Under the pieces are notes generated by a model that was not told where the DNA came from, did not search any database, and saw nothing but the letters and a program-made list of their open reading frames with translations. Shown here one piece after another: positions 1,818-24,237 of a stretch of 64,000 nt of DNA (its first letter is position 1; each line of letters starts with the position of its first letter). The stretch is from Acanthamoeba castellanii str. Neff (lineage: Eukaryota > Discosea > Longamoebia > Acanthamoebidae), in assembly GCF_000313135.1 (NCBI RefSeq), contig NW_004457554.1, positions 916,283-980,282 on the forward strand, given 5' to 3'. The translations under genes were made by a program, and so were the position numbers.

Positions 1818-2314
1818 CAGCCAGACCATCGAGGAGATAGTGTGTCCCATTTATAGTCCGTAGTGGCCACAACTTGGGTCGTGGCCCACACAACACACTG
1901 TGACTCTGACGAACGTTCGTTGCCCAACCAAAAACAATGATCCTTCACCTAACAACTGAAGGTTCCCATAATATTTGTGCTCTTTGTCGGTGCGGTGCTC
2001 TTGTGAGCGGCTGGCTTGGTCGTGGAAGATGCCGTTGTCAATGGTTGGAGTGCGAGAATCTTGCTCGTCCTGTTTCTCATACCACACACGCCCCTGTCTG
2101 TGGGGCGTGCCACTGATAGGACGAGCTTCGAGTGGAGCCATAAGCCAATCAGCCCTCGCACGGGGAGTTCGACTCTCCCCGACGGCAATCCATCTCTTTT
2201 GTCTCTTTCTCGGGCTCTTCGCAAACTGAAGGCTCAGCGTGAACCCCCTGGCTGCTCGCGTTGATCATCCATCAACCACCATTGTTCGAAGCAATGATTC
2301 TCTTCTTGAATTGT
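1818..2314. other. Intergenic region between convergent genes
   Basis: No protein gene is supported here. It lies between the stop codon of the LRR gene (+) and the stop codon of the sirtuin gene (-). It contains the tRNA-like structured RNA candidate at 2031-2187. The rest shows no other structure that I can support. Confidence 0.6.
2031..2200 (+). ncRNA. Candidate Pol III-transcribed RNA with tRNA-like ends and a long structured middle
   Basis: Bases 2031-2037 (GCCGTTG) pair with 2180-2186 (CGACGGC) like a 7-bp acceptor stem with one G-U pair, followed by a discriminator A at 2187. Bases 2161-2181 form a T-arm-like hairpin with loop TTCGACT (2168-2174), giving a B-box-like GTTCGACTC at 2167-2175. 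An A-box-like TGGTTGGAGTG lies at 2042-2052. Instead of an anticodon arm there are stacked helices: 2050-2056 with 2155-2161 (7 bp), 2063-2071 with 2118-2126 (9 bp, exact) and hairpin 2087-2094/2102-2109 (8 bp, exact). A TTTT run at 2197-2200, ten bases after the 3' end, fits a Pol III terminator. There is no recognisable anticodon. The short D-loop without a D-stem, followed directly by a long helix that returns beside the T-arm, recalls the tRNA-like part of tmRNA, but homology is not shown. Alternatives are a tRNA-derived repeat or a tRNA with an unusual intron. Confidence 0.6.

Positions 2315-3185: not shown

Positions 3186-3274
<89 letters not shown>

Positions 3275-17925: not shown

Positions 17926-24237
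<6,312 letters not shown>

Follow-up and report, generated by a model that had tools for sequence, protein, structure and literature searches.

Vault RNAs are described as transcripts of 80–150 nt with a box B, a stem joining the 5′ and 3′ ends and a T-run (PMC8824774), and have been reported in trypanosomes too (PMC12547018); for the taxon of the strain analyzed here, RNAcentral is said to list two vault RNAs (PMC12872441). The bacterial Y RNA YrlA contains a tRNA-like domain and is encoded together with Rsr, an ortholog of Ro60 (PMC7790460). Circularly permuted tRNA genes are known from algae, nucleomorphs and archaea (PMC3978253). Among the leading results of a search of the open-access literature, we found no paper that deals with tmRNA-like RNAs, or with RNAs containing a permuted tRNA, in Acanthamoeba.

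Here we analyze a candidate RNA gene in a 64,000-nucleotide stretch of the genome of Acanthamoeba castellanii str. Neff (contig 90, 916283–980282; hereafter, the window). In its sequence and predicted fold, the candidate combines a tRNA-like minihelix of acceptor and T-arm and a D-like loop with a three-helix rod in the place of the anticodon arm. As the preliminary description had it, the locus lies between convergent genes, in some 500 bp of intergenic sequence (1817 to 2315) delimited by the apparent ends, both dependent on inferred exons, of a forward gene upstream that looks leucine-rich-repeat-like by eye (~1817) and of a reverse gene downstream that encodes a Sir2 domain (26.9 bits; ~2315). 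The neighboring genes contain long simple repeats (CACGA-type and AC, at 903–1250 and 3187–3273 of the window), which are probably intronic. The core of the candidate, 2031–2187(+), is 157 nt long, and its parts are as follows.

2031–2200, forward strand: proposed transcript core with terminator (folding z −3.34; single locus)
2031–2037, forward strand: 5′ strand of the acceptor-like stem, pairing with 2180–2186 (7 bp, one G-U)
2038–2049, forward strand: D-like loop of 12 nt with two GG, a weak box A and a possible weak 4-bp stem (from the sequence and pair probabilities)
2050–2056, forward strand: 5′ strand of helix P2, forming 7 Watson-Crick pairs with 2155–2161
2063–2071, forward strand: 5′ strand of helix P3, forming 9 Watson-Crick pairs with 2118–2126 (12 with weaker pairs)
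2087–2109, forward strand: P4 hairpin of 8 bp (2087–2094/2102–2109) with a 7-nt loop, Watson-Crick pairs only (probability 0.99–1.0)
2118–2126, forward strand: 3′ strand of P3 (from pairing and probabilities)
2127–2154, forward strand: linker containing CGAGTGG, a second box-A-like element, and a weak hairpin (pair probabilities 0.51–0.58)
2155–2161, forward strand: 3′ strand of P2 (from pairing and probabilities)
2163–2179, forward strand: T-arm with loop TTCGACT, containing box B (5 bp, 2163–2167/2175–2179; T-arm of the Rfam tmRNA model, 10.2 bits)
2180–2187, forward strand: 3′ strand of the acceptor with discriminator A (from pairing)
2197–2200, forward strand: TTTT, the proposed Pol III terminator, at offset 9 from the gene end

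Thus, the acceptor, the A-box-like and B-box-like elements, the T-arm, the three helices (7, 9 and 8 bp) and the TTTT that were originally reported are all present, with the box A in the D-like loop being poor, and all pairs in P2, P3, P4 and the T-stem are Watson-Crick. In the folding that had been proposed as a check, the segment 2031–2200 has a minimum free energy of −67.8 kcal/mol, and none of 200 shuffled sequences is as stable. The antisense strand also folds (z −2.74, 1 of 200 shuffles as stable). At 37 °C, the pair probabilities in the 157-nt core are 0.94–1.0 for P3, 0.99–1.0 for P4 and about 0.9 for P2; in the acceptor, six pairs reach 0.86–1.0 and the seventh 0.34. The T-stem has a pair probability of 0.68 in the 7+5 register of acceptor and T-stem, and the minimum free energy fold prefers 6+6, moving one pair from the acceptor to the T-stem. 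A D-loop of 12 nt is found, as initially described, but the accompanying claim that it has no D-stem is uncertain because a 4-bp D-stem has a pair probability of 0.28–0.51. A 5-bp hairpin that could mimic an anticodon arm (core positions 22–26/34–38) has a pair probability of 0. Extending the sequence by 40 nt of genomic flank at each end removes the acceptor and P2 from the fold; with flanks of 0–20 nt on the 5′ side and 0–14 nt on the 3′ side (six combinations), both persist, with mean probabilities of 0.69–0.97 for the acceptor and 0.90 for P2.

The window was scanned on both strands for a T-arm with a TTCRANN loop directly followed by a strand that can pair with a 7-mer farther upstream, no fewer than 11 of the 12 pairs being Watson-Crick. 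This layout occurs at a single place, the candidate, and is present in 14 of 300 dinucleotide shuffles. Acceptor and T-arm together with an adjacent 7-bp helix likewise occur once in the window and in none of 300 shuffles, a figure that is generous because the layout criteria were fixed after inspection of the sequence.

A T-run just 3′ of the gene and a box B, two marks of a type 2 Pol III gene, are both found in the candidate, the box B being located in its T-arm. Among 86 distinct tRNA genes of the same genome, identified with their flanks by running ARAGORN on fetched loci and hence biased to the families searched, 82 are followed by a TTTT no more than 15 nt beyond the gene end, compared to 2.7% of 20000 random places in the window, and the candidate has its TTTT where these tRNA genes carry theirs. 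The B-box pattern GTTCGANTC alone has a chance expectation of 2.5 per window; the second box-A-like element, that of the linker, precedes box B by about 30 nt.

The suggestion that the region could be a repeat did not hold up: searches of the 38.4-Mb, 250-contig genome by blastn with 191 bases (E up to 0.001) and with 501 bases (E up to 10) each returned the locus itself only, so that a mobile repeat or SINE was rejected. No match to the candidate was found by blastn among phages and plasmids at E up to 1. An exact 19-mer from its 5′ end has no occurrence in viral contigs and is found in two bacterial records among genome contigs (L162 and L163), which is roughly the chance level by our estimate, and a 17-mer from the T-arm, a common T-arm, recurs in at least 120 stretches of viral contigs.

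Judging from the sequence and the folding models, we consider it probable that the candidate is a real Pol III RNA. The case for a gene comprises the fold stability, the joint layout, the position of the TTTT, the pure Watson-Crick helices, the intergenic location, the single copy and the presence in the genome of TEP1-type TROVE and MVP genes (see below). Against this reading stand the poor box A, the loss of the fold with 40-nt flanks, the folding of the antisense strand, and a similarity to vault-like RNAs that does not exceed chance. The status of the candidate as a gene is more secure than its function, and we hold a role as scaffold or decoy with less confidence than the existence of the RNA; we put at about even the chances that this is an orphan single-copy type 2 Pol III gene for a noncoding RNA that probably acts as an RNP scaffold or a tRNA decoy. 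TFIIIC would bind box B in the T-arm, and Pol III would transcribe the gene and stop at the TTTT; RNase P and RNase Z might then trim the tRNA-like ends, the minihelix could guard the RNA against degradation, and the rod would bind a protein. An RNA of this kind would serve as RNP scaffold or tRNA decoy rather than in decoding or trans-translation.

The strongest rival, which we consider unlikely, is that there is no gene, only inverted repeats clustered by chance, or else an untranscribed, decayed relic derived from a tRNA. This explanation fits the single locus, the folding of both strands, the poor box A, the frequency with which the box B pattern is expected by chance, and the appearance of acceptor and T-arm alone in some of the shuffles. 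It is hard to reconcile, however, with the complete absence from the shuffles of acceptor, T-arm and adjacent helix combined, with a TTTT at the usual place for a tRNA gene, and with helices that are free of mismatches, unlike those of a relic.

Stranger than the candidate are RNAs of the vault and YrlA types, detected in the same genome by control searches, that enclose circularly permuted tRNA domains. These RNAs, together with the relevant protein genes, are located as follows.

L032:1523–1740 (C108, ~240000), L033:1463–1688 and L034:1463–1675 (C124, ~92750 and 578300): permuted tRNA-like genes
L202:1501–1644 and L203:1501–1647 (C94:713498–713875): vault-like RNAs
L204:1501–1635 and L205:1501–1631(−): vault-like RNAs
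L209:1420–1650, L211:1420–1660 and L213:1420–1640(−): YrlA-like permuted tRNA domains
C143:62153–63394 (L194), C114:420847–422237 (L195, L196), C124:1103969–1104996 and C160:2721–3461: TROVE and MVP-repeat genes

With 18 of 502 candidates scored, the Rfam tmRNA model (RF00023) yields 13 matches in the A. castellanii genome at E up to 10; all of these stay below the cut-off, and the locus in the window is not among them. In the control genomes, the model has matches in all 14, with 9 over the cut-off. The top three matches in A. castellanii, L032–L034, are circularly permuted tRNA-like genes in which the T-arm and the acceptor 3′ strand come first, followed by a short loop, the acceptor 5′ strand, the D-arm and the anticodon arm. 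Their anticodon loops carry TAG, GCT and AGA, respectively, the permuted domain lies within a conserved outer stem, and T-runs follow downstream. The three genes are similar across 213–226 nt, with a mean column identity of 88%, and no further copies of this type were found by blastn. Ordinary tRNA-Ser genes (AGA, CGA, TGA and GCT) coexist with them.

For the vault RNA model (RF00006), 48 of 2964 candidates were scored, giving seven genomic matches at E up to 10, of which one, L202 (35.0 bits), exceeds the cut-off of 34; L203, L204 and L205 score 31.9, 29.1 and 26.7 bits, and the remaining three 17.1–17.6. In the controls, this model has matches in 7 of 14 genomes, none over the cut-off. The tRNA inside L204 and L205 has the normal order (RF00005, ~40 bits); L202 and L203 enclose, by our reading, permuted tRNA domains, the loop being Lys(CTT) in the former and Phe(GAA) in the latter. 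About 90 nt before the vault-like RNA of L204 is a U2 snRNA gene (L204:1184–1408, 91.3 bits). With the YrlA model (RF02553), five matches were obtained (46 of 1931 candidates scored), none over the cut-off of 69: L209 at 44.0 bits, the L032 locus at 32.5, L211 at 32.3, the L034 locus at 25.2 and L213 at 24.8; 13 of the 14 control genomes have matches below the cut-off. The flanks of L209, L211 and L213 contain TACTTC-type letters in common with the vault-like RNAs, and a 5S rRNA gene (L211:257–389, 56.9 bits) is located on the same stretch as L211. By the structure line of the YrlA family, the permuted set resembles bacterial YrlA in having the rod outside and the permuted tRNA inside.

When the halves of the permuted domains were joined at many junctions, with the acceptor strands picked by eye and no shuffled control, ARAGORN recovered Leu(tag) from L032 (501/1125), Ser(gct) from L033 (460/1125), Ser(aga) from L034 (473/1125), Lys(ctt) from L202 (108/1047), Phe(gaa) from L203 (111/1080), Tyr(gta) from L209 (118/1125), and either Tyr(ata) (94/1125) or Lys(ctt) (38/1125) from L211. 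Some joinings give other anticodons, and L213 gave no tRNA in 1125 joinings. A narrow exact pattern found no uninterrupted tRNA-Tyr, a result of little weight.

Two TROVE genes are present in the genome, one of them with a TEP1-type DUF4062 domain, along with MVP-repeat genes at two places; the protein side of vaults is thus present. Over the aligning 91% of its open frame, a TROVE protein of this genome has 100% identity to a protein named as that of A. castellanii str. Neff. Relatives of the TEP1-type TROVE protein frequently bear the name telomerase protein component 1, and Ro60 is a TROVE protein as well. Because other candidate RNAs of the vault and TROVE kind in this amoeba likewise combine a tRNA module with a rod, a TROVE/TEP1-vault particle would be the first RNP to consider for the scaffold or decoy proposed here.

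A bolder explanation, to which we assign little probability, makes the candidate an inside-out member of this vault/TROVE set, with a tRNA-like module holding the ends and a protein-binding rod inside. The other members end in the rod and carry the tRNA module, mostly permuted, on the inside; that the candidate is the same circle opened elsewhere is a doubtful proposition as well. The joining of tRNA module and rod in vault-like RNAs of the same genome is consistent with it. So is the score of 16.4 bits that a model built from the candidate alone gives to L202 (E ~0.026 on a rough calibration; 34 of 63 positions identical, ungapped), a match seen again via the L203 flank; in one scan of other loci, the best scores besides the candidate itself were 14.8 bits for L162 and 14.5 bits for L034. 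Furthermore, CCACTG and GAGTGG, the cores of the vault strands, occur in the candidate in the required inside-out order, as in 6 of 5000 shuffles, for a motif chosen post hoc. Yet the same motif is found at 21657 of the window, in L172 and in L214, the candidate lacks what follows downstream in the vault motifs, and its local alignments with seven vault-like or permuted RNAs are at the chance level, with 21 to 155 out of 300 shuffles scoring as well.

Neither does the vault RNA model match the window at its cut-off or the region 1900–2320 at E up to 10, and the candidate is not among the seven genomic matches. It shares with vault RNAs a size near their range, a box B, a predicted stem joining the ends and a T-run, with box A being weak, but differs in that no model match is found, a tRNA acceptor forms the closing stem, and the conserved vault strands were not found. 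With YrlA, it shares the joining of a tRNA-like module to a rod, but YrlA ends in the rod and has a permuted tRNA module, whereas the candidate ends in the tRNA-like module, and neither RF02553 nor any other Y RNA family matches it at E up to 10. The two weak hints given above, the score of L202 and the order of the vault strand cores, make the tie to the vault-like set a lead, not membership.

We regard as improbable, too, that the locus is a 3′-end element of the two convergent mRNAs, involved in termination, processing or stability and having no transcript of its own. The position between the convergent genes and the folding of both strands are as such an element would have them, but the one-strand tRNA arrangement of acceptor, T-arm and TTTT is left unexplained.

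The kinship with tmRNA suggested in the preliminary description was rejected, and a true nuclear-encoded tmRNA that tags stalled peptides is very improbable. The tmRNA-style layout itself was confirmed in the predicted fold: the acceptor and D-loop are followed by a helix, P2, that returns directly to the T-arm, with no anticodon arm. The Rfam check recovered a link through the T-arm hairpin only, at 10.2 bits, 37 bits below the family cut-off of 47, and ARAGORN, the other check suggested, reported no tmRNA in the candidate at default or lowered thresholds. SmpB was not detected in the A. castellanii genome at E up to 1, in a search that might overlook a gene interrupted by introns, compared to 10 of 14 control genomes that were positive in the same search. 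The tag frame of a tmRNA is expected to carry a protease-tag ending, and the alanine identity pair of tmRNA is G3:U70. In the candidate, one reading frame has inner tandem stops at its end, as a tag frame might, but the tag would end in GACH, with no ssrA-like protease-tag ending; the other two frames are open throughout, and the 3:70 pair is C-G. The length of about 157 nt also sets the candidate apart from RF00023.

An intron-containing tRNA with a degenerate D-arm is just as remote. At lowered thresholds, ARAGORN did propose a tRNA-Leu(cag) with a 91-nt intron, but this match needs a shifted acceptor with mismatches, and in a test confined to single deletions, none of 1414 deletions produced a cloverleaf tRNA under ARAGORN defaults, as against at least one in 32 of 60 sequences with shuffled interiors. 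The candidate is like a tRNA in its acceptor, T-arm, box B and terminator position, and unlike one in having no anticodon arm and no secure D-stem. Telomerase RNA was dropped because, by inspection, no template of the CCCTAA type, after the telomere repeat, was seen in the candidate sequence.

If the candidate is real, it would add a new case of tRNA mimicry, a nuclear eukaryotic RNA in which the upper half of a tRNA is combined with a rod that replaces the anticodon arm, and such an RNA could turn the tRNA-processing machinery to a different use. Along with the vault-like RNAs that enclose permuted tRNAs, it makes the long-standing question of the nature of vault RNA and its relation to Y RNA testable in a laboratory amoeba. 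If the inside-out reading were true, one architecture would be common to vault RNA, Y RNA and tRNA mimicry.
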